A DNA stretch of 60,660 nt from a virus. The stretch covers positions 1 through 60,660 of IMG/VR virus record IMGVR_UViG_3300025310_000006; one strand, 5' to 3'. Shown piece after piece: positions 1,009-59,000 of this stretch. The notes below the pieces were generated by a model. That model saw only the letters and a list, made by a program, of their open reading frames with translations, had not been told where the DNA came from and did no database searches. Within the stretch, counting starts at the first letter, position 1, and the number at the start of each line of letters is the position of its first letter. Both the position numbers and the translations under genes were made by a program.

Positions 1009-2262
1009 TCATATTTCTATAATACCTGGGAACCTGTCACCATCTTTAAGACATACCAACCACGCTGATACAACAGGTATATTCATATCTTTCCACCATT
1101 GGGAGGGGAAGTGCGTCTCACATCTAAACTTCATAAATCTAACAGATGTATTTCGTATGTAGCGAGCCTGCTCTTTCTTATAATAGTATAAGAAGCTGTT
1201 CTCATTCCAATAAGAGACATGTGTTGGATCTTGGAAAGCCCCTCTACCATCAGTTGAAGGAACTTCTATAAAAGCCCACCCACCATGATGTAATACTCTA
1301 TGTATCTCACTTATAGACTTGAGAGGATCTTTCAAATGTTCCAGAACATGTGAGGCGTTTATAACACCAACGGAATTATCGGGTAAAGGTATTCCTTGAT
1401 TTAGATCATGTTTTATATCCCCACCCTCTATATCAATACTCGTATATCCTGGGCGCTTATTTATTCCGCCTCCAATATCAATAAGCAGCTTACCATTGAG
1501 GATGGCGTCTCTTTCAGCCAGTTTTTGAGCATTTTTATAGCCCATTCTTACAGTCTCAGTCTGTATCTTCTGATTACGCTCCAACCAAGTATTATCACCA
1601 GTTATACGGTAAATGTAAAGAGGTTTATCAATATGAAACATCTTAGTAAACAAATAGGTTCTCTGAATCAAATCTTGATCATCCAATACATCAAGATTTA
1701 TATCATGCCCCCCAAGCGACTTATAAACACTCGTTCTCCAACATCTCACATGATCGGGCATAAACCAAATATAAGTCATTGAATGGCTTGTAGGTTTGAA
1801 AGTTATTGGAGAGGCGAGTAGCTTCCTTTCTTCACCAATTTTAATATCTAAATAATTATGTCTCCACCCGTAGTTTTCGTTATATGGTGTAAACTTTCCG
1901 TCCATTGGTAACTTCATATTGTCGCTATAAACAAACCCAACATCAATGTCGGAAAATGCTTTTACAACTTCTGTAAGACACTCATTAATTAAAATATCAT
2001 CATGATCCGCCTCAAGAAGAATATCACCAACTCCAGCGTTAAAAGCGTGATGTTTATGATATCCTACATTTGGACTTCTAGAAGAATCTGTAAGTATTCT
2101 AACCCTATCATCTTTTATGAAAGAAAGATGATCCAGCGTAGCATTCCCATTAACCCAAATAACCCATTCCCAATTCTCGTAAGTTTGATTGAGTATAGAT
2201 TGATATAGCTCCTTTATGTAAGGAGTATTCTTATGGGTTGGCGTTATTATGGATACTTTCAT
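1009..2262 (-). CDS. Glycosyltransferase family 2 fused to a SAM methyltransferase
   Basis: The 417-residue protein has two domains. Residues 1-245 are a GT-A glycosyltransferase: the start is MKVSIITPTHKN, ILNQTYENWEWVIW is typical of family 2, and EADHDD (85-89) is the metal-binding DxD. Residues 255-417 are a class I methyltransferase with IDIGGG (261-266) for SAM binding and HVLEHL (305-310), as in Methyltransf_11 proteins. A likely role is to add and methylate a sugar on a virion or host glycan; the acceptor is unknown. The start overlaps the thyA stop (ATGA). RmlA at 6758-7567 could supply an activated sugar. Confidence 0.85.
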   Translation of the reverse strand: MKVSIITPTHKNTPYIKELYQSILNQTYENWEWVIWVNGNATLDHLSFIKDDRVRILTDSSRSPNVGYHKHHAFNAGVGDILLEADHDDILINECLTEVVKAFSDIDVGFVYSDNMKLPMDGKFTPYNENYGWRHNYLDIKIGEERKLLASPITFKPTSHSMTYIWFMPDHVRCWRTSVYKSLGGHDINLDVLDDQDLIQRTYLFTKMFHIDKPLYIYRITGDNTWLERNQKIQTETVRMGYKNAQKLAERDAILNGKLLIDIGGGINKRPGYTSIDIEGGDIKHDLNQGIPLPDNSVGVINASHVLEHLKDPLKSISEIHRVLHHGGWAFIEVPSTDGRGAFQDPTHVSYWNENSFLYYYKKEQARYIRNTSVRFMKFRCETHFPSQWWKDMNIPVVSAWLVCLKDGDRFPGIIEI

Positions 2263-6290: not shown

Positions 6291-6761
6291 CTATTGTTTA
6301 GCCACTTCGGGACGAAAGTTGGGATCATTCGACGCTCCCTCCACAGGACGCCCAGCTTCATCAAACTGAATACCATATACATCTTCTTGAAGTGTCATGA
6401 CTGCTGACTTGAGCATGCCCATGCGCTTCTCAGATTGTTCTTTGATGGCGTTTATAGCCTCAAGAGCATCGTTTAGCTGCTCTTTGAGGGTGGTAATCTG
6501 ATCTTGAAGGGCTTGGACTTCACTGGAGGAAACTTTCAATTCCCGGGCTTCTGTTTGAATCTTTTCAAGCTTGTGTTGAAGCTGGAATAACGACGATACG
6601 GCTCCACCTTTAGCGGTTACGGGCGTCTTGTCATCAACTCTTTCTAAGAATACATACTTGAGTTCTCTATCAGACTCAATAACATCTCCCGGGACGAGCA
6701 TAATGCGCTTGCCCCCAACCATGAGTGATTGTCTGAAGTCTGAATTATTCTTATACTTCAT
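6291..6761 (-). CDS. Coiled-coil hypothetical protein, 156 aa
   Basis: The N-terminus (residues 1-50) looks like a small beta domain (MVGGKRIMLVPGDVIES). Residues 60-130 form a long predicted coiled coil (LQHKLEKIQTEARELK, ALQDQITTLKEQLNDAL). The start overlaps the rmlA stop (ATGA). The pattern of a small beta domain plus coil suits a structural or scaffold protein, but no family is recognised. Confidence 0.6.
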   Translation of the reverse strand: MKYKNNSDFRQSLMVGGKRIMLVPGDVIESDRELKYVFLERVDDKTPVTAKGGAVSSLFQLQHKLEKIQTEARELKVSSSEVQALQDQITTLKEQLNDALEAINAIKEQSEKRMGMLKSAVMTLQEDVYGIQFDEAGRPVEGASNDPNFRPEVAKQ

Positions 6762-7567
6762 TTGAGCGGTATCCTGTAGTTATTAGTATTTATCCATTCC
6801 TGTGTTCGAGCCATTGACGATGGAATACCCATGTCGCTCCAATAGCCGTCTATAATGGTTGATGTCATTGACTGATTCTGAACATAGAATTCGTTGACAT
6901 CCGATACCTCTAACTCGCCTCTACCAGATGGTTTCAGCCCACGAATAATGCTGAACACATGCGGAGTGTAAAGATACAATCCAGTGACAGCGTAGTTGCT
7001 TTCGGGGTTCTTCGGCTTCTCCACAATACCAGTTACGATTCCGTCTTTCAATGAAGCTACTCCGAATCTTTCAGGATCGCCAACTGGCTTGAGGAATATG
7101 TGGGCGAAGGAATCGGTTCCTTCATTTAGCCTTTGCGAAACTGGACAATCAATAGCTTTTCTAAACTTATTTTCAAACTCTTTGAAAGCTTCCTTGAAGG
7201 AGTCTTGATAAAAGTTATCGCCAAGTATAACTGCAAAAGATTCATCGCCAACCCAGCCTTCTATAAGCTTCATGGCGGAAGCGATTCCAACTGGGCGGGA
7301 TGCATCGTTATGATCCTGAATCTTATATGTCAAGTCAACGCCAAAGCGATGTCCGTCACCAAGAAACTCTATGATGTCACCACAATGCTCTTGCGATGAT
7401 ATGATGAGTATTTCTTTGGAGCCTGACTGAATAAGCGTATTGAGCGGATACCAAATCATCGGTATGGCTCCTTGCAGTGTATACACCGGAAGCAAATGCT
7501 TATTTGTTACCTCGGTTTGAGGTAACATTCTCGTTCCCCGTCCACCACATAAGCATACCGATTTCAT
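6758..7567 (-). CDS. rmlA: Glucose-1-phosphate thymidylyltransferase-like sugar nucleotidyltransferase
   Basis: The protein has 269 residues, slightly short of the usual 290. It has the signature loop GGRGTRMLPQT (8-18), NKHLLPV, the metal-binding LGDNFYQD, EKPKNPESNYAVTGLYLY, GELEVSDVNEFYV and GYWSDMG. RmlA-type enzymes join a sugar-1-phosphate to a nucleotide, typically dTTP, to make an activated sugar. It could feed the glycosyltransferases at 1009-2262 and 23207-24178 for virion or host glycan modification. The ATG at 7567 follows GAGAGG. Confidence 0.85.
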   Translation of the reverse strand: MKSVCLCGGRGTRMLPQTEVTNKHLLPVYTLQGAIPMIWYPLNTLIQSGSKEILIISSQEHCGDIIEFLGDGHRFGVDLTYKIQDHNDASRPVGIASAMKLIEGWVGDESFAVILGDNFYQDSFKEAFKEFENKFRKAIDCPVSQRLNEGTDSFAHIFLKPVGDPERFGVASLKDGIVTGIVEKPKNPESNYAVTGLYLYTPHVFSIIRGLKPSGRGELEVSDVNEFYVQNQSMTSTIIDGYWSDMGIPSSMARTQEWINTNNYRIPLK

Positions 7568-16693: not shown

Positions 16694-17647
16694 TCAGTTT
16701 ATTGCTATCAACTCACATGATAGGAGAGCGGATAAATCCTTTCCTCCAGCATATGATATACTCGAACGCAAATCTTCCTGTAGCTCGACAAGCAGATTGC
16801 TCATATCACCCTTGTAGTCTTGGAACAGCTTCTTACCCTCGACATGGGTATACTTGCCCTTATTATGCTCAGAAGCGGAGCCGTAGTATATACTCTTCTT
16901 ATGTCCGTCAATTTCTATTATTTCACCACCGCTCTGATCGTATCCATTGAAGAGACTTCCAGCCATAACCATAGTAGCCCCACATGCAATGGCTTTGGCT
17001 ATATCACCATGCTCACGAACGCCACCATCGGCTATAACAGGCTTCTTTGCAGCCGCTACACACTCTTGGAGGCAGGATATGGTTGGGCGGGTAAAGCCCG
17101 TCTTGAGCTTCGTAGTGCAGGCTAATCCAGGTCCAATGAAGAGCTTGCAGCAGTCAGCGCCCCACGATTCAATTTCTTCGACAGCTTCGGCTACAGCCAT
17201 GTTTCCAACGATGAGGAACGAGTCGGGAAGTTTGTCCTTGATATACTTTATCATCTTCTCAGCCTTTGGTGCCCAGGCTGAAGCTATATCAAGTGTTATG
17301 TAGTCGGGCTTGAGTCTGGAGGCTACAATCGAATCAATCTGCTTGTAGGATTCGTCGTTGACTCCCATGCTTATTGATGTGAAGTATCCGTATGACTCCA
17401 TATCCAAAATAAACTTGACGGGATCGACACCGAAACGATGCATGACGTAGAACCAGCCCTTAGAAGCCAAGAACTTACAAGTGTCAACACTAACTACGGA
17501 CTTCATATTAGCTGGACACACAGGCATCTTGAAGCGTCTACGCCCGAATTCTACAGAGGTATCACATTGACTTCGACTTCCAACTACCGCCTTCTTTCTT
17601 GAAAGAAGGAAGACATCTCCGTAGTTATATTCTCTGCGTGGTTGCAT
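16694..17647 (-). CDS. guaC: GMP reductase (IMPDH/GMPR family)
   Basis: The 317-residue protein carries the TIM-barrel motifs of the family: MPVCPANMKSVV near 41-52, GPGLACTTKLKTG with the catalytic Cys177, VIADGGVREHGDIAKA (204-219), ATMVMAGSLF, YYGSASE and EGKKLFQDYKG. The pattern (GPG-x2-CTT-x2-KTGF, GDIAK, SSISYAGG near the end) is that of the Bacillus-type GMP reductase rather than IMP dehydrogenase. It makes IMP from GMP with NADPH. There is no CBS domain. The start is the ATG at 17647, seven bases after AAGGAG. That ribosome site lies within a hairpin (17650-17682). Confidence 0.85.
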   Translation of the reverse strand: MQPRREYNYGDVFLLSRKKAVVGSRSQCDTSVEFGRRRFKMPVCPANMKSVVSVDTCKFLASKGWFYVMHRFGVDPVKFILDMESYGYFTSISMGVNDESYKQIDSIVASRLKPDYITLDIASAWAPKAEKMIKYIKDKLPDSFLIVGNMAVAEAVEEIESWGADCCKLFIGPGLACTTKLKTGFTRPTISCLQECVAAAKKPVIADGGVREHGDIAKAIACGATMVMAGSLFNGYDQSGGEIIEIDGHKKSIYYGSASEHNKGKYTHVEGKKLFQDYKGDMSNLLVELQEDLRSSISYAGGKDLSALLSCELIAIN

Positions 17648-17649
17648 AT

Positions 17650-17697
17650 CCAAACTCCTTTTCCTTATTCTAAGGAGTTTGGGCAGTTATTCAATAC
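17650..17697 (-). promoter_or_regulatory. guaC leader: sigma70-like promoter and hairpin covering the ribosome site
   Basis: On the minus strand GTATTGAATAACTGC leads to TAGAAT with 16 bases between TTGAAT and TAGAAT. CCAAACTCCTT (17672-17682) can pair base for base with AAGGAGTTTGG (17650-17660) across an 11-base loop, hiding the AAGGAG ribosome site. A transcript starting upstream would contain the whole hairpin. A transcript starting from TAGAAT would begin within it and could leave the site free. The structure is seen; the regulation is inferred from similar T4 genes. Confidence 0.55.
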
Positions 17698-20276: not shown

Positions 20277-20840
20277 TCACAGAAGTATTATTATAAGCAG
20301 TACTTGAAGTATACCAATAATTAGCCCAAGATAGAATCCCATGTTTATTATGGATTTCATCTCCTTCTTAGCCACATCATTTACCATCTTCTCAAGCTTT
20401 ATCACATCAAAGTTTTCAATCTTCTCCCTAACCATATTATAAATGAAGTCGTTTGTCGAGGCTTTCATTTCAGAATCATCGGCAAGCCCATCTTTCAGAG
20501 TTTCAGAAACCATCTCTGTTAGAAACTCACCTATGATGCCTCCAATAAAAGATTTCTTATTACCAAGCATTGAATTGACTGTATTACCTATGACACCATT
20601 CAATCCACTAGAGCCACCTATCTTATCCTTTATGGAGTCAAAATTGACTAGCTCTTTAGATACTACTTCTGCTATCTTATGAGCCAACTCCTTTTGCTTC
20701 TTAGGTATCAACCCCTGAAATCCTAGAATTGGTTTCCTGGGATAGAAAAGCATCTTGACAGCCAGCCAGTTAGTAGCCCAGCTATGAAAAGCAGCTACAA
20801 GAGCGATAGAGGCGTACTTGAGATAGAGAATGTCTATCAT
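20277..20840 (-). CDS. DUF445 family membrane protein
   Basis: The 187-residue protein opens ALVAAFHSWATNWLAVKMLF then YPRKPILGFQGLIPKKQ, the defining DUF445 signature (GWxTNWLAxxMLF, P-x4-G-x-QGxxPK). A helical middle follows, and the C-terminal hydrophobic segment is GFYLGLIIGILQVLLIIILL. Bacterial DUF445 proteins are inner-membrane proteins of uncertain function. It ends a four-gene cluster of overlapping membrane and coiled-coil genes. The start overlaps the upstream stop (ATGA). Confidence 0.75.
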   Translation of the reverse strand: MIDILYLKYASIALVAAFHSWATNWLAVKMLFYPRKPILGFQGLIPKKQKELAHKIAEVVSKELVNFDSIKDKIGGSSGLNGVIGNTVNSMLGNKKSFIGGIIGEFLTEMVSETLKDGLADDSEMKASTNDFIYNMVREKIENFDVIKLEKMVNDVAKKEMKSIINMGFYLGLIIGILQVLLIIILL

Positions 20841-21322: not shown

Positions 21323-21845
21323 GCTTCTTTTCCTTCAGCGTATCAATATATGTCTTCATAGCAAGATAGCGAGCATCGCTTTTATTGCTCAACGGCAAGT
21401 TAGCATGTTCTATATCGGCTGAAGTCTCCAGTATCATGATACGAAGCTGTCTAAGCTGTTCTTTCTGCTCTTCCAACTTTATCTTGGCTACATTGTAGTC
21501 TTCTTCTATCTTGCTCTTTGTAGCATCGAGGAATTTTATGTCTTCCTCTTTTATACCATTCCTCGAAAGTCTTTCCTTTTCGACATCACACTCAACCATC
21601 ATGGCTTTGTATGAAGATATGACTTTTATAAGTTTCTCTACAGAGCGTTCTGTCTTCACCTTTTCAAATTCTAATTCAGCCTTTGAGTTTGATGTCCCGA
21701 TATACTTCTTGCTACGCAAAAACTTCTCTCTAACCCAAAATAAACCATCGTCTATTTTCTCCTTGTTATTCTTGTATAGCTTCTGTGGTATACCAAGAAC
21801 GACACCAGCCAAACCCAAAAGTGTAACGGATATGAGGGTGAACAT
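21312..21845 (-). CDS. Membrane-anchored coiled-coil protein, 177 aa
   Basis: The N-terminal hydrophobic segment (LISVTLLGLAGVVLGI) is followed by a basic stretch and a long coiled coil (about residues 55-150, Lys/Glu-rich). It has the same layout as the adjacent 222-residue protein (21845-22513), though the sequences differ. The two may form a hetero-oligomeric membrane structure. Function unknown. Confidence 0.6.
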   Translation of the reverse strand: MFTLISVTLLGLAGVVLGIPQKLYKNNKEKIDDGLFWVREKFLRSKKYIGTSNSKAELEFEKVKTERSVEKLIKVISSYKAMMVECDVEKERLSRNGIKEEDIKFLDATKSKIEEDYNVAKIKLEEQKEQLRQLRIMILETSADIEHANLPLSNKSDARYLAMKTYIDTLKEKKHDD

Positions 21846-22513
21846 TACTTTCCTTTTTGCTCCTTGAACTTACGATACTTTTCCTTCATCTCAAATCTCT
21901 TGACGATGTTATCGTTGACGGAGTATTCGCTATGTCCAGTGTAACGGGATATGACTTCATTTGTCATGGTGCCGTATCCCATAACGGCAACCTTATCCAA
22001 TCTTTTTTGCGATTCTTCTATTTCGTTCTTGTGCTTGAAGACAACTTGGGCTATCTGAGCTTGAGCCAGTCTTTCCTTTAGAACAGTTTTCTCATACGCC
22101 TTCAAAGATTCTTCACGGCTCTTTATGAGGGCTTCCTTCTGAGATATACCCTGAAGGGTTACATCTCTCTGTGTCTTCTTGACACCGAATTCATGCTTAT
22201 AAGAATCTCTCTCATCCTGTGACAAGTCAGCATCATCTTTAGCGAATTCAAGAAACTCAATTTCTTCTTCAAGCCTCTTGAGTAGAGACTTGTCAACCGC
22301 AAGCTCGGCTTTATCGTTTCTGAGGGATTCCTTCTCAGCCTCATACTCAAGCTTTATATTTTCTTCAGCGTTTCCAAGTATCATACCCTGTCCAAACTTG
22401 GTGCGCATGAAACGCTTCTTCACAACACCGACAACGGCTCTAGCGGGGGCAGTATTTCGAGCAAACCAAGCAGCCAAAGCACCGCCTCCAACTATCAATG
22501 ACTCAAATAACAT
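21845..22513 (-). CDS. Membrane-anchored coiled-coil protein, 222 aa
   Basis: The short Gly/Ala-rich hydrophobic N-terminus (LIVGGGALAAWFA) is followed by basic residues and a long coiled coil (55-165). A C-terminal segment contains GYGTMTNEVISRYTGH. It shares the layout of the next gene. The start lies 11 bases inside the end of the GluRS-like gene, suggesting coupled translation. No family is recognised. Confidence 0.6.
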   Translation of the reverse strand: MLFESLIVGGGALAAWFARNTAPARAVVGVVKKRFMRTKFGQGMILGNAEENIKLEYEAEKESLRNDKAELAVDKSLLKRLEEEIEFLEFAKDDADLSQDERDSYKHEFGVKKTQRDVTLQGISQKEALIKSREESLKAYEKTVLKERLAQAQIAQVVFKHKNEIEESQKRLDKVAVMGYGTMTNEVISRYTGHSEYSVNDNIVKRFEMKEKYRKFKEQKGK

Positions 22514-23210
22514 TGTGTATCTCCTTGTCTATGTCTTTGCTGTATGTATCTATAATAGTTTGCAATTCCATGTCAGACATATCTTTTATATTATAGCATG
22601 AATGATATGAATTACTTTTACTTATTTTCTCACCGTCAATCTTTATATTCTTGAAATTTGTAACTGTATAGTTAGAATTCAAGGAATTGAGAATAAGTAT
22701 TTGCATTTTACTCATTTCTCTATATTCACCACTATCAATATTCCATTCATCTCCCCTAAGTATATGAGAATGATTCCAGAATGCGTCTTCTACAAGGAAT
22801 AGAGGCATATGTGAATAAAATGAATTTCCAAAAAGCTTATCTATAGCGTCTTTCTTGTCCGACAAACGATATACATCATCGACATCCAATCCGGTTCTCA
22901 TAATCTGCTCAACCGTTTTACGCATAAATTCATCGGTTAGAGATTTGGGTCTTGTTATCTCGTAAAGTCCCTTTCCGGGTAAATGAGCGGTTGAATCCGC
23001 CTCCCATCTCGGATCCTTCTTCGGATAGTCATTGAATGTTGAGGCAAACTTTACATAGGAATCATCAAATCGTATATGAAACTTGGTTTTATTCTTCTTA
23101 GCATAGGCATGTGAATAAACTAAACCATACAGGTGTCCAATATGCATCTCACCCACAGGATTCACCGATATGGCGAATCTGGTTCTATTATGTTCAAACA
23201 ATATAGTCAT
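22503..23210 (-). CDS. Stand-alone glutamyl-tRNA synthetase-like catalytic domain
   Basis: The 235-residue protein starts at the ATG overlapping the upstream stop (ATGA at 23210). It carries the class I synthetase signatures in order. RFAISVNPVGEMHIGHL holds HIGH (23-26), FHIRFDDS resembles the GluRS RIEDTD strand, SHILRGDEW (148-156) matches HVLRGDD, and GEKISKS (193-199) is the KMSKS loop. The anticodon-binding half of GluRS is absent and no zinc Cys cluster is seen, so it is nearer in size to GluQRS. Such domains activate an amino acid, usually glutamate, with ATP. The acceptor here is unknown: a tRNA, a modified base, a protein or a sugar are all open. Confidence 0.8.
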   Translation of the reverse strand: MTILFEHNRTRFAISVNPVGEMHIGHLYGLVYSHAYAKKNKTKFHIRFDDSYVKFASTFNDYPKKDPRWEADSTAHLPGKGLYEITRPKSLTDEFMRKTVEQIMRTGLDVDDVYRLSDKKDAIDKLFGNSFYSHMPLFLVEDAFWNHSHILRGDEWNIDSGEYREMSKMQILILNSLNSNYTVTNFKNIKIDGEKISKSNSYHSCYNIKDMSDMELQTIIDTYSKDIDKEIHNVI

Positions 23211-24178
23211 GCTTCTTTCTTTGGTAATATGTTTGTCCACATTTTAGATATCATTTCCTCAGACACCAACCAATCAAGTCCGTTGAATCTTTCAATATAC
23301 TGACGATCATTGCGAAACTTTGTTACCACATCGGCTAAGAAAGAATACTGCTTATAACATATAGCATTGAAGAAGCTAGGAGTCTTGGAGTTTTTTATGA
23401 ACCAACCAATGGAATCTTTGAAGAATACTATGTCATTGAATATGGAGTAGTGTTCGACTGTTATAACATGGCTCTTCATGGATGCACCACGGTGTAAGAG
23501 TCTTCCGTCAAAGTCAATACTCAGGACATTGGTTGGATTAAGAACTGCCCAATGGGCAAAGTTTCCCAAGCCGCTGTCTACCTTGTGAACTCCATCTTTT
23601 GCTTTAGCGTCCATCTCTTCATCAACCAGTCTTCCACCTGTGAAGGTTTCTTTATCTTTTATATTATAGATGTAGTTGCATAGGAATAGATTCATGAGGA
23701 ATAGGTGGTTGTTTCCACTGTAGAAATCATAAGAGGTTTCAGCATCACCGTCAACGCGCTTTTTCCAAGCATTCACTACCATGTAAGCAGATGGATTACT
23801 GTCCATTGTAGTAAGCATATCATCTAATATGTTACTCTCAACGAAGCAGTCCGTATGGAGATAGAAAGCTTTATAAGTGGTATTATCCAAAAGCTTTCCG
23901 AATACATATGCCTGCTGGGATGCTTCGTCTGGTTCTTTACTTCCAATGACATACAAATCAAACTTATCACTAACCATTTCCGCGAGTGATGTAAAAAATT
24001 CATCTTCTTTGAAGTCGTATTTTAGAACATCGTTTACCGATACTATGACACATTGTATATTGTTGTTGTTCTTGTATAGGTTATGAATACATCTTAGTAA
24101 AAATAGCTGAGTACCCTCAACATAATTTATTAGAACGGCGTTGTCATAACCTTTTTTCAGTATAAGATCAGTTTGCAT
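23207..24178 (-). CDS. Glycosyltransferase-like protein, 323 aa
   Basis: The sequence suggests a GT-A fold. NNNIQCVIVSVNDV and YDLYVIG-type strands are followed by KAFYLHTDCFVESNILDD, which has the place and shape of the DxD metal-binding motif. NFAHWAVLNPTNVLSIDFDG and LLHRGAS could form the acceptor side. The match is by pattern, not strong motif identity. It overlaps the upstream gene by 11 bases and the GluRS-like gene by ATGA, so all three form one translational unit. Confidence 0.5.
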   Translation of the reverse strand: MQTDLILKKGYDNAVLINYVEGTQLFLLRCIHNLYKNNNNIQCVIVSVNDVLKYDFKEDEFFTSLAEMVSDKFDLYVIGSKEPDEASQQAYVFGKLLDNTTYKAFYLHTDCFVESNILDDMLTTMDSNPSAYMVVNAWKKRVDGDAETSYDFYSGNNHLFLMNLFLCNYIYNIKDKETFTGGRLVDEEMDAKAKDGVHKVDSGLGNFAHWAVLNPTNVLSIDFDGRLLHRGASMKSHVITVEHYSIFNDIVFFKDSIGWFIKNSKTPSFFNAICYKQYSFLADVVTKFRNDRQYIERFNGLDWLVSEEMISKMWTNILPKKEA

Positions 24179-25094
24179 GTTTCACCATTCCTTTTATTAT
24201 ATCAATTTCTTCTTTTAGTTGCTTCCATGTTGGGTGGCGATTATTCATGAAATGATGTTCATCGGAAACCAGTCCGTCATATCCACGGTTTAGTAGTTTT
24301 CTCCCATTCTTATTGAGAATACCAACCGCACCTTCTGTTCCACCTAAAACCGGAATGCCGTATTTCTTCATACCTATAAACCAGTTATCAGTATCGTACA
24401 TAGCATTCATAGATATCAAGCCAACCTTATATCTTTCAACCATTTTCTCAATATAAGGTATCATTCCCCTATTGGCTATATCGAAAGTATCGTTTCTTCT
24501 AAATGTTATTGGTAATAGGCATTTGTTCGGAACGCTTTCAAGTATATGATTGAATCGTTTAAGATAGTTTCCGATTATGAAAGGTTTGGCGATTTTCCAA
24601 GACTCCTTATCTTTATCATTTTTGAAGTCAATATATTTGTTTATTGATATGTTATTATCTTTCAACAACGATTGACTATGCTCATCACAAAAAGGAGATG
24701 GGTGCATAACCGAGTCAACCATACATGTTTCATGGTGTATCATGAGATACCAGGGCATATCCGTCACAACCCATTTATCTATCAATGTATTAGCTGCAAT
24801 TTCTTCAGCCGCTTTCTTAGCCCACTCATCAGCAGCTTGAAAATTGTTTTGTTTCAAAGCAATTCCACTTGCACTTACGAATGGTGATATTGGCTTTTCC
24901 TTCCTCAATACACTTGGAAGTAAAGATATGATAGTGAAACCTTTATCTTTAGCCTTGTTTATAAATTCTATGTCAACTGATTCCCATATTGATATGGTGT
25001 CTATACCAAGAAACTTCAGCTTTTCTAAAAAGTCATCAGACTTTTCTTTATAGTATTCCTTGGATAGTTTCTTCCAGATGTGAACACATAGCAT
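24168..25094 (-). CDS. Hypothetical TIM-barrel-like protein, 308 aa
   Basis: No family is recognised. The spacing of short strands and helices (FLGIDTISIWESVD, KGFTIISLLPSVL, DKWVVTDMPWYLM, YKVGLISMNAMYD, YGIPVLGGTEGAVG, GYDGLVSDEHHFM) resembles an alpha/beta barrel such as a glycoside hydrolase or phosphodiesterase. Catalytic residues cannot be assigned. It is the first gene of the unit with the glycosyltransferase-like and GluRS-like genes and starts only 3 bases after the poly-serine protein stop. Confidence 0.5.
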   Translation of the reverse strand: MLCVHIWKKLSKEYYKEKSDDFLEKLKFLGIDTISIWESVDIEFINKAKDKGFTIISLLPSVLRKEKPISPFVSASGIALKQNNFQAADEWAKKAAEEIAANTLIDKWVVTDMPWYLMIHHETCMVDSVMHPSPFCDEHSQSLLKDNNISINKYIDFKNDKDKESWKIAKPFIIGNYLKRFNHILESVPNKCLLPITFRRNDTFDIANRGMIPYIEKMVERYKVGLISMNAMYDTDNWFIGMKKYGIPVLGGTEGAVGILNKNGRKLLNRGYDGLVSDEHHFMNNRHPTWKQLKEEIDIIKGMVKHAN

Positions 25095-25097
25095 ATA

Positions 25098-27110
25098 TCA
25101 GCATGGTCCTGGCGTCGATGACCAAGTAGAGATGCCCGAATTGCATCCACTCTCAGTCCAACAGGTATTATAAACGGAATTGTATATTGAGTATGGAGTT
25201 CCAGATTGTGGTCCTATACAGTTCAATCCGGTGCCAGATGGAGCGCCCCACCCAATATTGGAAGCTCCCGCAACAAAGAACAATGCTCCGTCAACCGGAT
25301 CACATGGGTTTGGACCCGGATCAGAGCTACTGGAGCTTGAGCTTGAGCTAGATGAGCTAGAGGATGAGCTTGAGCTAGAGCTAGATGAGCTAGAAGAGCT
25401 AGAGGATGAGCTTGAGCTAGATGAGCTACTGGAGCTTGAGCTTGAGCTAGATGAGCTAGAGGATGAGCTTGAGCTAGAGCTAGATGAGCTACTGGAGCTT
25501 GAGCTTGAGCTAGATGAGCTAGAGGATGAGCTTGAGCTAGAGCTAGATGAGCTAGAAGAGCTAGAGGATGAGCTTGAGCTAGATGAGCTACTGGAGCTTG
25601 AGCTTGAGCTAGATGAGCTAGAGGATGAGCTTGAGCTAGAGCTAGATGAGCTACTGGAGCTTGAGCTTGAGCTAGATGAGCTACTGGAGCTAGAGGATGA
25701 GCTTGAGCTAGATGAGCTACTGGAGCTTGAGCTTGAGCTTGAGCTTGAGCTAGATGAGCTACTGGAGCTAGAAGAACTTGATGATGGGAAGCAGCATATA
25801 CAACAATCGTCAAGATTATCGAATACTATGTTTCCAGAAGTGTTTACATATATGTCGAAACACTTTCCAGGCTCAATATTTTTTATGAAATGAGTATAGA
25901 GAGCTTTTCCGTATACCTTATTGTAGTAATTTGTAGTTGTCCTCGAATACCATCCAATATCCTTGAAGTCTGGATGATCGACGAAGTAGCTTGTATTCTT
26001 ATAATAATCGTTATACAAAGCTCCACTTATCTCACCGACATAAGCGGCGCCGGATGTGTATTCACTCAAAACATCAGTTGGTAAGTGGACTTTCCATTTC
26101 TCGTCGCCAACTGGAATAATCTCAGTTTCCCATGTTAGGATGTTGTCGGGATTGTAGATGTCAAGTGGATCCCTGATATTGTCGATCGGAAACTTCCACG
26201 CTATCAGTTTGATATCTTCGGTATACTCAGCCTTTATCTCTTTACCTTCTTTGACATCATCCGGAATACTGGCTTGAGGATAGTAAAGGTTTCCATCTAT
26301 AGAGTGGCTTCGAACATTACAATTCTTGTATGTTCCGTCCAAGTTTCTATCAATTCTCGTTGACAGGTTGTATGAGAACCAAATGGTTCCGAAAGACCAT
26401 GTATAACGCTCGCCCAAATCCCAGGTTTGCTTTGTGTCGTTTAGATATCCTACACCTACATTGTTTCCAATGTTGTAGTTGTTGAACTTTCCGTTATACC
26501 ATGTATCAATCTTCAAGTCCTCGGAGTGAAGAACTGGAACCCCGTTCCCGGCAGTCTTCATCATAAGGTTCAATCCGTTTATCGTAACAAACTTATCGTC
26601 AAGATAATCTTGATCTACGAATACGATTTGATATTTGCTATTTGTATCGTTTGGTAGTTTTGGCGGATTTGGACCATACGGAACTCTTTCCGCTATTGGA
26701 GATTTAGTCTTGAATCCTGAAGCTTCTCTACGCTTGGTTACAATGTTTGCAAAAAGAAATACCTTAGCACAATCTTTTATCTCTTCAGGATAAAAGTCCT
26801 TATTATCAAATATGTAAGGATTCGAATATATGAACTCTTGTGTTGGATTGCCTGGATTACCAAGAAATAGGGGAATGATAACCCCCGTAGCCATCGTTGG
26901 ATGGTCGGATACAGGGAGTGGGCTAAGAGTCGCTTCATCAATTCCAGAAGCTATTACAGGAGTGTCACTGGTATTGGCTATAGCGTTTTTAAACTCTAGC
27001 TCTTTTTCAGGATACGGAGAAGTAGTACGAATGGGAACGCTGTTCGCTCCATTCTTACCGAAGTTGCCTACTATTACCGGCTTTCGAGATCCTCTACTTC
27101 TCAGTGACAT
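25098..27110 (-). CDS. Structural/adhesin protein with 154-residue poly-serine linker
   Basis: The 670-residue protein has three parts. Residues 1-440 are a beta-rich domain with no recognised family (FGTIWFSYNLSTRID, YTWSFGT). Then comes CCICCFP followed by an uninterrupted run of 154 serines (25323-25784). A Cys-rich C-terminal domain of about 70 residues follows (DPGPNPCDPVDGALFF to TPGPC). The serines are encoded by mixed AGC, AGT, TCA, TCC and TCT codons in six-base combinations. The layout suggests a flexible linker holding a small disulphide-type tip, as in adhesins. Two long frames on the other strands of this repeat are shadows. Confidence 0.75.
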   Translation of the reverse strand: MSLRSRGSRKPVIVGNFGKNGANSVPIRTTSPYPEKELEFKNAIANTSDTPVIASGIDEATLSPLPVSDHPTMATGVIIPLFLGNPGNPTQEFIYSNPYIFDNKDFYPEEIKDCAKVFLFANIVTKRREASGFKTKSPIAERVPYGPNPPKLPNDTNSKYQIVFVDQDYLDDKFVTINGLNLMMKTAGNGVPVLHSEDLKIDTWYNGKFNNYNIGNNVGVGYLNDTKQTWDLGERYTWSFGTIWFSYNLSTRIDRNLDGTYKNCNVRSHSIDGNLYYPQASIPDDVKEGKEIKAEYTEDIKLIAWKFPIDNIRDPLDIYNPDNILTWETEIIPVGDEKWKVHLPTDVLSEYTSGAAYVGEISGALYNDYYKNTSYFVDHPDFKDIGWYSRTTTNYYNKVYGKALYTHFIKNIEPGKCFDIYVNTSGNIVFDNLDDCCICCFPSSSSSSSSSSSSSSSSSSSSSSSSSSSSSSSSSSSSSSSSSSSSSSSSSSSSSSSSSSSSSSSSSSSSSSSSSSSSSSSSSSSSSSSSSSSSSSSSSSSSSSSSSSSSSSSSSSSSSSSSSSSSSSSSSSSSSSSSSSSSSSSSSSSSSSSSSSDPGPNPCDPVDGALFFVAGASNIGWGAPSGTGLNCIGPQSGTPYSIYNSVYNTCWTESGCNSGISTWSSTPGPC
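25323..25784 (-). repeat. Low-complexity repeat encoding poly-serine
   Basis: 462 bases built from variants of AGCTCA, TCTAGC, AGCTCC and AGTAGC, with larger duplicated blocks of about 90-130 bases. Read in the gene frame, every codon is serine; in the other frames it is Glu/Leu or Ala/Gln repeats. The reading frame is kept throughout. Confidence 0.95.
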
Positions 27111-40978: not shown

Positions 40979-42583
40979 TTACCCAATACCAAGCTGGTTT
41001 CGGAACCCCTCTAATTCTGGATCAAAATCAAAGTTTCTAGCACCCCCGGTTGCCTTCATAAAACTCTGCATAACCTCTTCATCACTCTGCTGTTCATCAT
41101 TCATAGGAGCGGACTGGACATTCTTACTGAGCATAGAGTGTAAATGATCTTCCCAATATTTAGAACGGAGAGCGTATGCAGCCCAATATCCACTAGCTAC
41201 AATATCATCATGGAAGCTTCTACCCTGGCGAGCCTGGAATACACCAGTCTTTACCTCTTCGAAATATGAAAGCTCAGTAACCATGTCGGAAGAGTTGATT
41301 ATCATCTTCTTTTGCTCGACATCTTCCTTGAAATATGAGAGGGCTAGTGGCTTAGTCTTTACGGAAGCATTTACCCCATACTCACCCTTATCATAGTCAT
41401 ACCATGTATTATCGTAACCATCTTCAAAATACATGTTGTGGACTACAGTGTGTCCAAGGTGGTTGTTTTCGACTATGGCTACAGCGTTGTTATATTTCTT
41501 ACATATCTCGATTATCTTGTCTTTGAAGTCAAATACAGATATATCATTACGACGGAACATGGCTACTTGTTCGTATGTTCCTTTTGTGTGCCAGTCCGTA
41601 GCATCAAATACATTAGCTACATGGAAGTCGGTGTTGGCTCCTTTAGCCACATCGCATGAAACAAGATATAGCCTATTATGGACTGGCTTCTTCCACATAT
41701 AGAAACCTTCCTCTGGATAGAAAGGAGGTTCGACAGTCTTGAGCGATTCCAGCACTTCACCATCTATGAGAGTATAAGAAGAACCAGTAAAGGAGACATT
41801 GTATTCTTGTTGAAATTTAACTTTACCAATTGCCTGTATCTGAATTTCTTTCCATTTTTCATCCCTGTCAGGATGGGCGTGCCAAGGAATCTTCATGGTT
41901 TTCCACGCCGTATTTTTTGCGGATGTTGCACTCTTCCACAATTCATAGAATTTACCAGCGGTTCCGTTTGGAGTAGATACCACTATGATATTACCACCAG
42001 TGGAAAGAGTAGGATAGTTAGCAACCCAAAATTGCTCAGCTATGTTTTCAGCGACGAACGCAAACTCGTCGAGAAACAGTAATGATACCGAATCACCACG
42101 AATAGCGTCTTGTGAAGTGGCTCTTGCGAATATTCTACTTTCGTTTTCAAACTTCATTTCCAACTGATCATACTTTTTTACCCCAGGTTTCAACCACGCC
42201 GGAAGCATCTCATAGCCCTTTTTTATATCATCAACTATACCAATAGCTGTGGATTGTTTGTTAGCAAGTATTGCAATATTTTTTGATGGGTTGAAAATAG
42301 AAAACCAAAGAAGATAAATGGAGGCGCAAGTTGTCTTACCAAGCTGACGGGCTGCCATTATGAGATTCTGGCGATTATTACGCATGTTTTCCAGCATTTC
42401 ACGCTGAAATGGAAATAGCTTGATAATTTCTTCTCCGCGTACAGGATGTATAATAGTATAATATTTCTCTGCGAAATACGTTATATCGCTTGCACATCTG
42501 GCAAGTTCTTGAAGCATATGAGCAGTAAACTCAATTTGCCTACCCGGTTTTACAATGTATCTATCATCATATTGAATTGGCAT
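40979..42583 (-). CDS. 17: Large terminase subunit, gp17
   Basis: The 534-residue protein has an N-terminal ATPase with Walker A AARQLGKT (77-84) and Walker B LLFLDEFAF (168-176). The motif VVSTPNG (SAT-like) follows. The C-terminal RNase H-like nuclease has SCDVAKGANTDFH, AIVENNHLG and FHDDIVASGYWAAYA with the three acidic residues. It packages DNA into the prohead through the portal. T4 gp17 is 610 residues, so termini are shorter. It is followed by the sheath gene, as in T4. Confidence 0.95.
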   Translation of the reverse strand: MPIQYDDRYIVKPGRQIEFTAHMLQELARCASDITYFAEKYYTIIHPVRGEEIIKLFPFQREMLENMRNNRQNLIMAARQLGKTTCASIYLLWFSIFNPSKNIAILANKQSTAIGIVDDIKKGYEMLPAWLKPGVKKYDQLEMKFENESRIFARATSQDAIRGDSVSLLFLDEFAFVAENIAEQFWVANYPTLSTGGNIIVVSTPNGTAGKFYELWKSATSAKNTAWKTMKIPWHAHPDRDEKWKEIQIQAIGKVKFQQEYNVSFTGSSYTLIDGEVLESLKTVEPPFYPEEGFYMWKKPVHNRLYLVSCDVAKGANTDFHVANVFDATDWHTKGTYEQVAMFRRNDISVFDFKDKIIEICKKYNNAVAIVENNHLGHTVVHNMYFEDGYDNTWYDYDKGEYGVNASVKTKPLALSYFKEDVEQKKMIINSSDMVTELSYFEEVKTGVFQARQGRSFHDDIVASGYWAAYALRSKYWEDHLHSMLSKNVQSAPMNDEQQSDEEVMQSFMKATGGARNFDFDPELEGFRNQLGIG

Positions 42584-44330
42584 TTGGTTTCTCCCATATG
42601 TATCTTATTTTACCACAATCATATATTTTATAGTATTTCCCACATCTAAAAATGGCTTCTTCTTCTGTTTCGCCTTCATTTATCATATTCTTTTTTTGTA
42701 GCTCGGATTTACGGAAAGCAAAACGATGCCTCCGCATCAGATTGCATTTTTCAACATAAAAGTAACTCGGAGAAGAAATTCCATCATTTCTAAATCCTAA
42801 TACCTCATACATATTACCGTTTGAAAAAGAGTTGTCCGCATAAGAGACGATGTTTGTAGGCAATTTATCCTTTATAAAATTACTGAGAAGTCTTGATGCT
42901 CCACCCACAACAACACTATTTAAAATAGTAGCATATCTGACCAATTCCCACTCGTATTTTTTACTTTTTGTTGCCTTTGAAAAAGACATCAAGGCAACCA
43001 GTGTTTTATTATAAAAAAGACCGTAAGAGATACTTGATGAACACCACCCTTGAATGTGGTTTTTATTATAAAATTGTTTTTGTAAATAAACGTCTCCAAC
43101 TTCACCTATATCACATTTACGGGCAAATATTTTATTATCAGTTTTACCTAATATATTTTTTATTTTATCTTTTATAATGTCTTGTTTATGTATCCACTCA
43201 TCTTCAAATATATGAAGGAGGCGTATACCATTTTCTTTGCATAAATTTGTTTTATTATAATGATATTTAGCGTTTTTATACTCTGATGAATGCCAGAATA
43301 CTCCGTTAAATTCTATTGCTAACTTTTTATCCGGTAAGAATATATCTATTTCCCCATCTATAATATCTCTGTTATTTCTAATAACATCAGAATCATATAT
43401 ACTTCTAATGAAATTATATATTTCGGTTTCTTGTGAAGAAAACGGAGCCATTTTAGGTTTACAAATACTACACGGGCTACTATTTACAGCAAATCTACTG
43501 TATATGAATTTAGTAGATTGCCATTCTTGATTGCCACAAATATTACAAATGTAATTAGTTCCGCAATTTTTATGTTCAATAACTTTTAATTTATGTTTAG
43601 AAAACTCGTCTTTTATATATGCCGAGTATCTTTCTATTTGGGAATCTGATATTTTTTCAGAGTTAACATAATTAATATTGCCGTATTTAGAAAATTTTGT
43701 ATTTCTGGATTTATCCAGTATTGCTAATTTCTCTTCCTTGGGTTTTTCACTCCAAGTCTTTTTGAATTTTTCTCTATTAGTAAAATTAGAGTCGCCATAT
43801 TTTTCAATCTTTGTAAGTTTTGCTTTTTCTATATTTACAAAATTTTCATTTCCATATTTTTGTAATTTTGTTTCTTTTATAGTGTTTTTTATGCTTTCAT
43901 CATTCATTCTACAGAATAGATTGTTGCAATACTTGTGATAACCTTTAGTTATGCTAATAAATCCTTTTTCATTTCCGCACTTCTTACATATGTTTTCTTT
44001 ATTAACCATTAAGTAATTATCGTAATATTCTTTACCACTAATATTATGTATTTTTACCAAGTGGTTTGAAACAAAAACTTTATATCCAGTATATTTTGTC
44101 TTCTCACCACAGTGCTTACAAACTATACCCTTTTCTAAATGTTCCCTCTTCTTGTCCAAAAATTCATTATTTTTCTTAACTATTTCGTCAACGTCGGCAG
44201 AATTGAATAAAAACATTCTTCCTTTTTTTGTAAAAGGTAATTTTCCCACTTTTCTCCAATAGTCAACTGTCTGTGGTTTGACTTTGCATATTTTTGCAAC
44301 ATCACCTGTTGTAATAAGTTGTTTATCCAT
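42567..44330 (-). CDS. Free-standing homing endonuclease with MerR-like N-terminus (Vsr-like EDxHD type)
   Basis: The 587-residue protein starts at the ATG at 44330. A MerR-like helix-turn-helix (TTGDVAKICKVKPQTVDYW) is followed by CxxC zinc pairs and a repeated YGxxNF linker (residues 135-220). A Vsr/PD-(D/E)XK-like nuclease has EIDIFLPDKKLAIEFNG, VFWHS and LLHIFEDEW. The C-terminal 200-residue module contains YNKNHIQGW and ends KIYDCGKIRYI. It sits between gp16 and gp17 genes and shares its second half with the protein at 50465-52267. Low GC and Asn/Lys richness mark it as transferred. A late promoter lies directly before the ATG. Confidence 0.75.
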   Translation of the reverse strand: MDKQLITTGDVAKICKVKPQTVDYWRKVGKLPFTKKGRMFLFNSADVDEIVKKNNEFLDKKREHLEKGIVCKHCGEKTKYTGYKVFVSNHLVKIHNISGKEYYDNYLMVNKENICKKCGNEKGFISITKGYHKYCNNLFCRMNDESIKNTIKETKLQKYGNENFVNIEKAKLTKIEKYGDSNFTNREKFKKTWSEKPKEEKLAILDKSRNTKFSKYGNINYVNSEKISDSQIERYSAYIKDEFSKHKLKVIEHKNCGTNYICNICGNQEWQSTKFIYSRFAVNSSPCSICKPKMAPFSSQETEIYNFIRSIYDSDVIRNNRDIIDGEIDIFLPDKKLAIEFNGVFWHSSEYKNAKYHYNKTNLCKENGIRLLHIFEDEWIHKQDIIKDKIKNILGKTDNKIFARKCDIGEVGDVYLQKQFYNKNHIQGWCSSSISYGLFYNKTLVALMSFSKATKSKKYEWELVRYATILNSVVVGGASRLLSNFIKDKLPTNIVSYADNSFSNGNMYEVLGFRNDGISSPSYFYVEKCNLMRRHRFAFRKSELQKKNMINEGETEEEAIFRCGKYYKIYDCGKIRYIWEKPNANSI

Positions 44331-44335
44331 ATACT

Positions 44336-44343
44336 TATTTATA
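44336..44343 (-). promoter_or_regulatory. T4-type late promoter core TATAAATA before the endonuclease gene
   Basis: A perfect core only 5 bases upstream of the ATG at 44330. Taken with the normal start offset of such promoters, the message would begin at or inside the gene, so either it is leaderless or a later start is used. Confidence 0.5.
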
Positions 44344-44378
44344 TCACAAACCAAAATTTTTCAATGATATTTTTTGGA

Positions 44379-50464: not shown

Positions 50465-52267
50465 TCATTTATTTTCTATTATATATCTTTTATGCCCACA
50501 ATCATAAACCCTATATAAACCCAATTTTTCAGACAAGACAGCCTCAGTGTCATATTCGGTAAAATCTATATTAAGGGACAAACACTTCTTTATCAACTTC
50601 TTTTTATCAAATCCAAACTTATGTTTTCTACACCATTTCGTATTAGAACCACAATACATATAGTCAACTCCGAGTATTTTATCCTCCAAAAATCCTATCT
50701 TTTTATAAAATTCACTATCCCCCCACCTATTATCAGAAAAAGTCACTATTTGTGTCATTGGGTGTAATTTTATAAAATTATTCAAAAGCTTCCCGGCTCC
50801 ACCCGGGACGTTTAATTCTCTAATAGTTGAATATCTTTGAAGTTCCCATTGATTTTCTACTCTTTTTAATTTACCATGGCGCAATCCAAATGACATCATA
50901 CATACTATACTTCCATTATGTTCCAACCCATAACAGTTTCCAATCTTGGATGGAGCGCCTTGTATATGATTATTGTTGAAAAAATCCCTAGCTGTAAAAT
51001 CATCTACTTCAATTATTTTACATTTACGAGCGTATATTTTATTTTCATTCTTTCCGAGTATACTTATAATTCTTGATTTACAAATATCTTTTTTGTTGCA
51101 CCACTCATCATCGAATATAGTTATTAACCTATATCCATTTTCTTTGCACATCTCGTATTTTCTTTTGTGATAGTTTTTGTCATTTTTAAATTTAGTCGAG
51201 TGCCATATAACACCGCAAAACTCAAAAGCTACTTTTTTATCATGACATACAATGTCTAACTCATAAGGAGCAATTATTGTTTTATTATTTTCCTCAACAT
51301 CTAAAACCAATGATTTTATAAATTCACAAAATTCTGTTTGACTCTTTCTTTTTGTGGATGCGTAACATTTTTCACAACTCATTTTATAATAGTTTCCAGT
51401 TAAATTAGCCCACGTTTTCACATATAAACCCCCGCAGTTATTGCAAACAAACTCTATAGGAGTATTTACATCTTTATATTCCAATTTAGTTTTTGGATAA
51501 AAATTATATTCCAAACACATATTCTTTATTTTTTCACACACCCTATCAGCATCTATATTTTTCTTACATCCCAAACACCCATTACCATTACCAGTAAACA
51601 AGTTATATGGTAAACATTCTTTTATTTCTCCACAGTCATTACACTGATATACACATTTTGTTTTCGTATTTGTATACTGAACTATACGCCACTTATCTTG
51701 TGTTAAAATTTTGTTTTTGAGATTTTGTGGTAATGTGTCATATGTTATTGTTTCACGTAGTATAACCCCATTTGATAAATTATCACGCGTATTTAACTTT
51801 TCTTTGATTACATCTGCCGAAATTGGGTGATATTTTCCATTACATTCTGGACATTGTAAGGTAGTATTATCAAGATTTTTTTCAAGATGTGATATGGATT
51901 TTATTTCTTTTATATAATCATGAACATTGCATTTAACAAATATACTATCATTAAACCTATTGTAATACTGCTTTTCATTCATAATCTTAAAATTATATTT
52001 AGTTGCCCAGGAAAAAATAACTTCATATTTAACACCCATTTGTTCGTACTTTGCTCGTAACGAACAATGTGGGCATTCTTTTGGATTTTTATGTAAGGAT
52101 TTTACTTTGGTGACAGATGAACAGTATGTATGTTTATTATCACATTCAATTATAACTTTGGTATTTACATTAAATTTATTATCTTCCATTAGATCTTTTT
52201 CATTTATAACTTTTACGCCATTAAATAAATGACTATGGTGTAGATAAGTAGTCTTTGGGCGGGGCAT
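50465..52267 (-). CDS. Free-standing homing endonuclease (Vsr-like EDxHD type), 600 aa
   Basis: The ATG at 52267 follows GGAG. The N-terminal half has several CxxC zinc pairs (CPHCSLR, CPECNGK, CNDCGEI, CNNCGGL), probably DNA-reading repeats. The nuclease has YELDIVCHDKKVAFEFCG, VIWHS and LITIFDDEW. The C-terminal module has NNNHIQGAPSKIG, MMSFGLRHGK and ends RVYDCGHKRYI. The second half matches the 42567-44330 protein in order and motifs. It sits downstream of the capsid terminator and is AT-rich compared with its neighbours, indicating invasion. Confidence 0.75.
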   Translation of the reverse strand: MPRPKTTYLHHSHLFNGVKVINEKDLMEDNKFNVNTKVIIECDNKHTYCSSVTKVKSLHKNPKECPHCSLRAKYEQMGVKYEVIFSWATKYNFKIMNEKQYYNRFNDSIFVKCNVHDYIKEIKSISHLEKNLDNTTLQCPECNGKYHPISADVIKEKLNTRDNLSNGVILRETITYDTLPQNLKNKILTQDKWRIVQYTNTKTKCVYQCNDCGEIKECLPYNLFTGNGNGCLGCKKNIDADRVCEKIKNMCLEYNFYPKTKLEYKDVNTPIEFVCNNCGGLYVKTWANLTGNYYKMSCEKCYASTKRKSQTEFCEFIKSLVLDVEENNKTIIAPYELDIVCHDKKVAFEFCGVIWHSTKFKNDKNYHKRKYEMCKENGYRLITIFDDEWCNKKDICKSRIISILGKNENKIYARKCKIIEVDDFTARDFFNNNHIQGAPSKIGNCYGLEHNGSIVCMMSFGLRHGKLKRVENQWELQRYSTIRELNVPGGAGKLLNNFIKLHPMTQIVTFSDNRWGDSEFYKKIGFLEDKILGVDYMYCGSNTKWCRKHKFGFDKKKLIKKCLSLNIDFTEYDTEAVLSEKLGLYRVYDCGHKRYIIENK

Positions 52268-52317
52268 AATAGTTTTCTCCACTCTATAGTTTTATTATAT
52301 GCCGTGTTTATAATAAA

Positions 52318-56045: not shown

Positions 56046-59000
56046 TTATAGAGCAGGTTCTTCGCCACCTGCATCGCCCCCAACATCCCCACCTTCATCT
56101 CCGCCAGCGTCACCGCCAGCATCGCCGCCACCCATATCTCCGCCCATATCACCGCCGCCTAAGTCCATACCGCCGCCGCCTCCACCACCGCCGCCGCCAT
56201 CCTCACCCTCTTCTTCAAGTGAATCCTTTTCAGCGGCAAGAAGCTCTTGATTCTGCTTCCACTCTTCTTCATCAACTTCAAGATACTTCTGGACAATCCA
56301 CTTACGGGCGAATACAGGCTTCTCGGTGTCGATGAGATCCTTGAAGTTACTGAAGTTCTGGAAACGAAGCTCAAGGACTTTAGCTTCCATGAACTTCTCA
56401 AAGAGGTTATTAGCGAACATCTGAATTTTGATGTCCTGCTCAGTAATACCATATTCTTCAGCTATACCCTTGAGGGTAAGATGAGTAATGAATATATCCT
56501 TGAATACTTCAGCGAATCTATCAGTGTAACGCTTGACTTCCTTGACGAACTTGACTTCTTCACGGGTAATATCTGAAGTGTCACCGATGGAGAACTTGTT
56601 ATCTTCACCAAAGCGGCTCTTAGGAATCTTCAAGCCACGGTAGAGCTTATTCAAGAAGTAATCAATGTCACCGATTTCCCCAAGTCCACTATTATGACAG
56701 AATACGCCAGATTCCAGAGCATATGTGTGATAATTATGTATTATATGGTTATTATCTATCTGCAAATCACCAACATCTTCTCTGTCAGACAAATATTCAA
56801 TCGAGACAACTCTATGATTGATATTTTTACAGTCTTTCTTGAAGTGCTTCCAGTTTCTAAACCCATTCTTTTTTATAATCTTTATTATATTAGAAGTAGT
56901 TATGTTGTTGAAATTTGAATGAGAATCATTATTCTCCTGTTTGAGTCGCGATGTAAATGAATTGTTGCTTCTCAAATATTCAACAACGTCCCGGCACTTT
57001 CCACATGTATTACCAACGGCATCTACAATCATCTTGAAAGTTTCAAATGAACATTTTATAGACTGCTTTTTAGCGGAGGATTCCATTTTAGCGATATATC
57101 CTTTATCGCTCCATAAACGCTTGGAATTATTTGAATAAATAATCTTTTTCTCAAGAGACGATTTTACTGCCTTTATAGATATACCACGTTTCAATAATAC
57201 ATTTTTACGGAAACTATCATCATTCAACATTTTATATTGAAGCTTCTCGTTAGCACCTACGAGATTGGAAATAGCCATAGAAACTAACTTCTCTCGCTCC
57301 TCAACAGTAAGAGTATTCAAATACTTCTTTATTCCCTTCGAAACTCTCTTACCAAATCTCTCTTTTTCAGTCGGTGTAGCGGTAGCCCAATATTCTCTCA
57401 ACGATTTTTCATTTCCATTTTTATTCTTTATAGCATTTAATCCTATTTGTGATAATTTCTCAGAATGGAAGGCAAAATGATCCCTAAATCCCATATGAAA
57501 TAGGTTTTCTGGGTTATTATTGAATCTATTTACATCTGAATGATGTATAACCTTCTTTTCTTCATCCAATTTATATTTAATCTCATTATAAAACGGGGTT
57601 CCGGTTATAGAATTCGAAACCATTTTATGGGTTGGTATCCATTCTTTTCTATGAGTATCATAAACAAAGTTATATTCTTTATCACCTCTATAAACTTTAT
57701 TCTCTTGTCTAAATGGTATAATAGAATCATTTTCTTTTATATCTTTAGCTTCAAGCATACCCTTACCCAATACTGGAAATTTATGTTCTGGAGTGCATTT
57801 TATTTCTTTACCGTTATCAAGTATTAGCTTCATCATCTGGGCATTACGTTTTGTGATACCGGCGGCGTCGATCTTTCCAGGCTTTATCTCCCCAGATTCA
57901 GGATCACAGCTAAATACCCAATTCTGCTTTCCAGCAGCATGTTCGTCTATTATTTGCTGAAGAGTTAGCTTTCTTCCATCTAACAAAGGTATAATAGTAT
58001 CCAGAGCCAAGCATCCGCCAGCCAGAGTTGTAACATCTGAAGAGCGTCCGCCCTGGAATACAGGGAACCAGAAGTCCTCAGTCATAGCCATCATATCCAA
58101 ACCCTCAGATATGTCGCCGGTTGCAGGATCGAAGAACTTACGTTGACGATACTTGCGAATCATTTCCTGCATGAATTGATCGGCTCTGCCCTTTGGAAGC
58201 GAACCAACATCAATCTTGAATACACGGCGCTCTGGCGCACGGACTATACGATAGATAACGAGAGCGTCTTCAAGAAGCTTGAGACGCTTATAGGTTGTCT
58301 TGGATTCTTCAAGGAATGAAAGAACAACCTTCATATCCTCGTCCTTACTCCAGTCAAACTTACCGCTATTAGCGTAAGCTATCATTTCCTTTGGAAGATT
58401 CTTGACGCCTGCATCTTCGCCTTGGTAAGCATAGAAGAGAACATCGTCGGATTCAATATCCTTATAGACAGGATAAATCTTGGTTGTCATCAGCTTCTTG
58501 ACTTTGCAAATACCCTTGGATTCGTCTTCGATATCAAATATCTTTTCAAAGTATATCTCACCATCAACCATATATTCACGGAAATACTGGTGAATATACT
58601 TATCAATTCTTATAATCTGATTCATCAAATGATCAAACTCTGCGATGATTGTCTTACGCATGTTGTCATTCTCGTTGAGAGCCTTATTACGGATGATAAG
58701 CTTCATACACTTACCATCTGGACCCTCGTTGACGGCTTCATCAACATACTCATCAACAGCGAATGCTATTTCTGGATACTTAGCCATTTCGCGATATATG
58801 GCGAGGCGGGTTCTCTTATCACGCTCAATAGCGTAGATATACTTTGAGAATACATTGACTACTTGGCTATACTCACCATTGACAATACCGACATCTTGTA
58901 AGTCGGTGACTGGAGCCTGGGTAATAGCCTTCTCACGGGCTTTGTCATTACCAGGGTTCAGATTGTTGAATATGGTGTTTCTTGTCTTGATGAGAAGCTG

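Follow-up and report, generated by a model that had tools for sequence, protein, structure and literature searches.

The window analysed here is the whole of a linear IMG/VR fragment of 60,660 bases, whose source is a T4-like myovirus; a T4-type setting had been proposed from the letters of the DNA alone, and MCP, portal, sheath, tube and terminase are all matched by PHROGs. On the minus strand, three overlapping open reading frames encode a barrel-like, a glycosyltransferase (GT)-like and a GluRS-like protein, exactly at the coordinates given in the original prediction (Table 1). The barrel-like and GT-like frames overlap by 11 nt, and the GT-like and GluRS-like frames by 4 nt in the form of ATGA. 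The gene unit is longer than was described at that time. A gene with a long polyserine run, located after the tail genes, ends a few nucleotides ahead of the barrel-like gene, and a further gene follows the trio. Neither the polyserine gene directly upstream nor the loss of the CP1 insert from the GluRS-like protein, described below, had been noted before.

Table 1. Positions of the gene unit and of two sugar-related genes in the window
Feature	Position	Strand	Basis
GluRS-like bare catalytic core, 235 aa	22503..23210	(-)	PF00749, AF2 model, L041 homologue
GT-A-like putative glycosyltransferase, 323 aa	23207..24178	(-)	ORF; L041 homologue; predicted label
(beta/alpha)8-like protein of 308 aa, perhaps a glycosidase or another enzyme acting on sugars	24168..25094	(-)	ORF; L041 homologue; fold predicted from sequence pattern
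Polyserine protein, conserved in phage clade, likely surface-exposed substrate	25098..27110	(-)	homologues; after tail genes
154-serine run, aa 443-596 of polyserine protein	25323..25784	(-)	coordinates computed from the polyserine ORF
Next gene, mostly charged, probably coiled-coil protein	21845..22513	(-)	11-nt overlap with GluRS-like ORF; 73% identical in L041, position kept
RmlA-like sugar-1-phosphate nucleotidylyltransferase	6758..7567	(-)	PF00483 1.2e-44; NCBIfam RmlA 3e-54, under cut-off
GT2 glycosyltransferase fused to methyltransferase	1009..2262	(-)	PF00535 2e-13, PF08241 1.2e-9

The trio is kept together in a related phage. In a record of 51,944 bases (L041), the polyserine, barrel-like, GT-like and GluRS-like genes follow one another as in the window, and so do the genes downstream of them. 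Identity between the window and L041 is 63% for the polyserine protein, 36-37% for the barrel-like, 34-37% for the GT-like and 48% for the GluRS-like protein, and 73, 68 and 65%, respectively, for the three genes downstream. In the cassette pN is 0.36-0.44 and pS 0.74-0.84, the latter near saturation, and pN is far lower throughout. Another record, L042, ends inside the cassette, and the known independent genotypes of the trio are two, both metagenomic.

Homologues of the GluRS-like protein are limited to these two phage lineages in the searches made, with none from bacteria or other phages. A tblastn search of the trio against 50,697 phage records gave no relative, the L041 versions yielding only noise at E~0.5, and when 84,980 species genomes were scanned twice with the GluRS-like protein, three chance matches but no relative came up. 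Searches for related loci with single trio proteins found none; with alignments, the GluRS-like protein led to the L041 record only and the barrel-like protein to L041 and L042. Scanning viral contigs for RGDEW returned one ordinary bacterial-type GluRS (L049), the rest being noise.

Several other genes of the window were recorded. A membrane-type DUF445 protein (20277-20840, minus strand; PF04286, 4.6e-20) is encoded in the same late block, and a phage-encoded GMP reductase (16694-17653, minus strand) scores above the cut-off of NCBIfam NF003966 and is 86% identical in L041. The portal gene (56046-59078, minus strand) encodes 1010 residues, and the stretch 469-544 has an HNH endonuclease-like match, suggestive of an intein or insertion. 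Two homing/HNH endonuclease genes (42567-44354 and 50465-52282, minus strand) lie between the head and terminase genes, and similar matches occur in two relatives, G004 and G013.

Family and fold of the GluRS-like protein

The 235-residue protein belongs to the catalytic domain superfamily of the class Ic (Glu/Gln) synthetases. Residues 9-51 match PF00749 with E=1e-10 and 41.5 bits against a gathering score of 23.4, and the L041 homologue also lies above the cut-off (1e-5, 25 bits). The signatures from which a class I synthetase core had been predicted are all present, namely HIGH (H23-H26), HILRGDEW (149-156) and KISKS (195-199), together with RFDD at residues 47-50; HIGH, R(F/Y)DD, RGxEW and KISKS are kept in L041. 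Three further motifs, YPxKDxRWE, HxPGxGxYExxRP and xIxSGEYR, are common to both phage proteins and unseen in GluRS. The NCBIfam models of GluRS and GluQRS match with E values from 1e-4 to 1e-7, all far under their cut-offs (28.5 bits vs 289.95 for the canonical gltX equivalog, and 23 bits vs 276.7 for the GluQRS equivalog), as does likewise the GlnRS equivalog. The protein therefore lies inside the superfamily and outside every named member. Compared by profile with four GluRS/GluQRS/GlnRS sequences, the phage protein agreed over residues 7-52 only (93%).

The competing identity named in the original prediction, an ordinary cytidylyltransferase, finds no place in these results. No Pfam family of that kind matched up to E=1, and the cytidylyltransferase-like viral matches in BFVD were weaker than the GluRS matches. 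A RhoGAP match was also seen, which was weak and taken as chance.

With an alignment of two rows, AF2 gave a model with a pLDDT of 36.6. After two short fragments of the L049 GluRS, covering residues ~1-50 and ~131-205, had been added to the alignment, the pLDDT was 73.5 and the pTM 0.74. Foldseek matched this model to 22 PDB entries at E<=0.001, nearly all of them GluRS. VIA-align superposed it on M. tuberculosis GluRS with a Z of 14.1 and an rmsd of 3.6 for 182 aligned residues within model positions 6-234, and on GluQRS with a Z of 13.0 (E. coli YadB, 1nzj) and 12.5 (GluQRS with Glu); the agreement is partly built in, since GluRS rows guided two segments, and the aligned range also covers the unguided ones. 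The phage protein is, as modelled, the Rossmann catalytic fold of GluRS. Structure prediction and profile search, the two checks first proposed for this gene, thus both point to the GluRS family, and with an L041 homologue carrying the same motifs they mark the protein as a genuine class I GluRS-type catalytic core.

Lost parts and the glutamate pocket

In an alignment with E. coli GltX, GluQ and the L049 GluRS, the anticodon-binding half is absent from the phage protein, in agreement with the original prediction. Also missing is the CP1 insert of about 55-60 residues, the acceptor/zinc-binding part present in both GluRS and GluQRS, and the Zn motif is gone with it. The C-terminus extends ~37 residues past KISKS and is shorter than that of GluQRS. 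As far as the alignment can tell, the protein looks stripped of its tRNA-binding parts.

The glutamate contacts of GluQRS are Arg9, Ala11, Ser13, Glu45, Tyr172 and Arg190 (PMC12736043), which map to R11, A13, S15, D49, H134 (Phe in L041) and R152 of the phage protein. Four contacts are identical and the glutamate is changed to aspartate, so the pocket survives at five of six positions, whereas its tyrosine has become His or Phe; the full identity at six contacts expected of a GluQRS was not found. Both phages retain the pair of arginines that serves the side-chain carboxylate, as well as an acidic residue that serves the amino group. The retention of the two arginines and the aspartate would make Glu the most likely amino acid; the lost tyrosine, however, is a contact of the Glu side chain, so that a different amino acid may be used. 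We regard Glu as probably the activated amino acid, a best guess from the pocket residues that leaves another acid possible.

It is improbable, in our estimate, that the protein is a GluQRS-like tRNA modifier which glutamylates the queuosine of host or phage tRNA, the polyserine neighbour being incidental. Among characterised relatives that lack an anticodon half, GluQRS enzymes are the closest, as judged from the two Z values above, and five of the six Glu contacts are kept or conservative. However, the GluQRS equivalog score is a small fraction of its cut-off, the CP1 insert and Zn motif are absent, the C-terminus is shorter, and the gene sits inside a tail-gene unit that is kept in L041. 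Moreover, no tRNA genes were found in the window or in the scanned stretches of L041 and G013. A tRNA base, which the original prediction had left open as the acceptor, has become less likely for two of these reasons: the CP1 insert is gone, and the examined sequence has no tRNA genes.

Other changes point in a different direction. The equivalent of Asn191 is Phe, and two insertions, the conserved seven-residue NIDSGEY after RGxEW and a two-residue one ahead of HIGH, are absent from GluRS and GluQRS. Together with the substituted tyrosine, these changes would suit a paralogue of altered catalysis: for glycan synthesis it would activate some carboxylic acid (an amino or sugar acid) in place of Glu, or else it would have re-evolved from a synthetase core into a nucleotidyl transferase. 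We consider this unlikely, if less so than a tRNA modifier, given that the Glu-reading Arg pair and the acidic residue are kept in both phages and that the cytidylyltransferase families of Pfam are unmatched.

The shortness of the protein and its partly changed pocket could also be those of an inactive synthetase relic, which would regulate the glycosyltransferase or support it structurally as a subunit, for which HisZ, the partner of HisG, is a precedent (PMC9437257). This is the least probable of the readings considered, as both phages have preserved the adenylation motifs HIGH and KISKS at an overall identity of 48%, and pN is well under pS.

The polyserine neighbour and a proposed virion decoration

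The serine run of the window is uninterrupted over its 154 residues and uses five codons (AGC 56, TCA 43, TCT 31, TCC 15 and AGT 9). Since both TCN and AGY codons occur in it, the run seems to reflect selection for the amino acid and not a simple DNA repeat. Homologues of the polyserine protein were found in G002, G004, G006, G013 and L041; the serine runs measure 58 and 221 residues in L041 and 26 in G013, and the G004 and G006 proteins have serine-rich stretches with shorter runs. Throughout the clade, the protein is conserved over its N-terminal 440 residues. Presumably, the protein is part of the particle. A literature search, which covered few subscription papers, found no paper on polyserine phage proteins and none on a phage synthetase of this bare-core kind.

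The labels GT-A-like and TIM-barrel-like, given to the two other members of the trio in the original prediction, come from the secondary-structure pattern, and profile and PDB-sequence searches gave them no support. The GT-like protein and its L041 homologue had zero Pfam matches at E<=10, the barrel-like protein matched no barrel-enzyme profile (only a weak, unrelated Carbam_trans_N at 0.09), and neither protein matched a PDB sequence. The GT-like protein has a Rossmann-like start and a strand reading YLHTDC in the window and ILHSDC in L041, with HTDC/HSDC at a DxD-like place. In the barrel-like protein, eight strand-like and helix-like segments alternate, with conserved residues at the strand ends; D112 in a TD(M/I)PW motif, E254 and EHHF(M/F)NNRHPT are conserved. 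From these sequence patterns, the middle gene may encode a glycosyltransferase and the first gene a (beta/alpha)8 sugar enzyme, possibly a glycosidase.

The relatives place other genes beside the polyserine protein. In G004, its homologue occurs without the trio and is followed by genes on the opposite strand; with no glycosyltransferase-like gene adjacent to this serine-rich homologue, the polyserine protein can do without the trio. In G013, a 214-kb relative, there are five GT25 matches near the polyserine gene, with GT25 tail-to-tail with it, and a weak GT8 match; this cluster, which includes a tandem GT25 protein, lies at L018 10787-15227 and L019 67-1884, and no PF00749 match was found in G013. 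The L041 record carries a GT25 gene elsewhere. Since different sugar enzymes adjoin the same serine-rich protein, glycosylation is favoured as the common theme. We still infer the coupling of the synthetase-like gene to glycosylation, as did the original prediction, and it is strengthened by the polyserine gene, by the GT25/GT8 genes of G013 and by two genes of the window, the GT2 gene and the RmlA-like gene, the latter of which possibly supplies nucleotide sugars.

The RmlA-like and GT2 genes might also belong to a decoration by amino acids of phage DNA or of a host surface glycan in place of a virion protein, and DNA is an often reported target of phage glycosyltransferases (PMC12619734). 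We judge this very unlikely, on a par with the tRNA modifier. The thymidylate synthase of the window passes ordinary TS cut-offs and thus gives no hint of a base hydroxymethylase or hypermodification, in a fragment whose early genes lie outside it, and in both phages the trio stands in the late tail block, with the polyserine gene directly before it.

Our best explanation, which we hold with somewhat less than even confidence, is that the polyserine gene and the trio form a virion-decoration cassette in which the synthetase-like enzyme adds an amino acid, most likely Glu. The GT-like enzyme would glycosylate the tail-region protein at its serine run, and the barrel enzyme would be its partner, perhaps as a trimming or transglycosylating glycosidase. 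The GluRS-like protein, with its HIGH/KISKS core, would convert ATP and the amino acid into aminoacyl-AMP without a tRNA, and the amino acid would then be passed to the glycan, on a hydroxyl or an amino group, to its sugar precursor, or to the serine hydroxyls, the product being an amino-acid-bearing coat. The more specific proposal, that the tRNA-free core glutamylates the glycans or serines of a mucin-like polyserine virion protein and so makes the first aminoacylated glycoprotein virus coat, is doubtful. Gene adjacency is no proof of substrate. The locus suggests a self-made decoration of the phage particle, with sugars that bear an amino acid. The conserved, tRNA-stripped GluRS-type core is real, and the cassette it sits in is probably one of virion decoration.

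Comparison with known systems

Synthetase paralogues that act away from tRNA are few, and GluQRS, PoxA and MshC have each opened a pathway. GluQRS and PoxA aminoacylate acceptors other than the tRNA 3' end, and the CysRS-like MshC joins Cys to an aminosugar (PMC9437257). If the preferred reading is true, a GluRS core devoid of tRNA-binding parts, conserved in a late viral operon beside a serine run of 154-221 residues, would represent a new acceptor class and a new viral-surface chemistry. The cassette makes a small test set, with one enzyme, one obvious substrate and two helpers, and the GluRS-like protein bears on how small a class I synthetase for amino acid activation may be.

With bacterial GluRS (GltX), the phage protein shares the catalytic fold, HIGH, RGDEW, the KMSKS-type loop and the Arg pair, and gives its highest Z (14.1); unlike GltX, it has no CP1 acceptor-binding, stem-contact or anticodon-binding domains, and measures 235 residues vs ~470. 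GluQRS (YadB; 1nzj, Z 13.0) likewise is a GluRS core without the anticodon half and has the same Arg/Ala/Ser/acidic/Arg glutamate contacts. In contrast to it, the phage protein lacks the CP1 insert, the zinc motif and the pocket Tyr, has a shorter C-terminus and a seven-residue insertion after RGxEW, and is encoded in a tail-gene unit. The resemblance to MshC, the mycothiol ligase, is one of working only, in that a class I core joins an amino acid to a sugar; MshC is of the CysRS family, and its comparison with the phage protein is limited to the class I fold. Mycobacteriophages such as Che8, Corndog and Myrna glycosylate their virion proteins with phage-encoded glycosyltransferases, according to work cited in PMC12363180; the portion of that source available to us mentions no synthetase-like enzyme in those phages. 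Here the likely target is a pure serine run.
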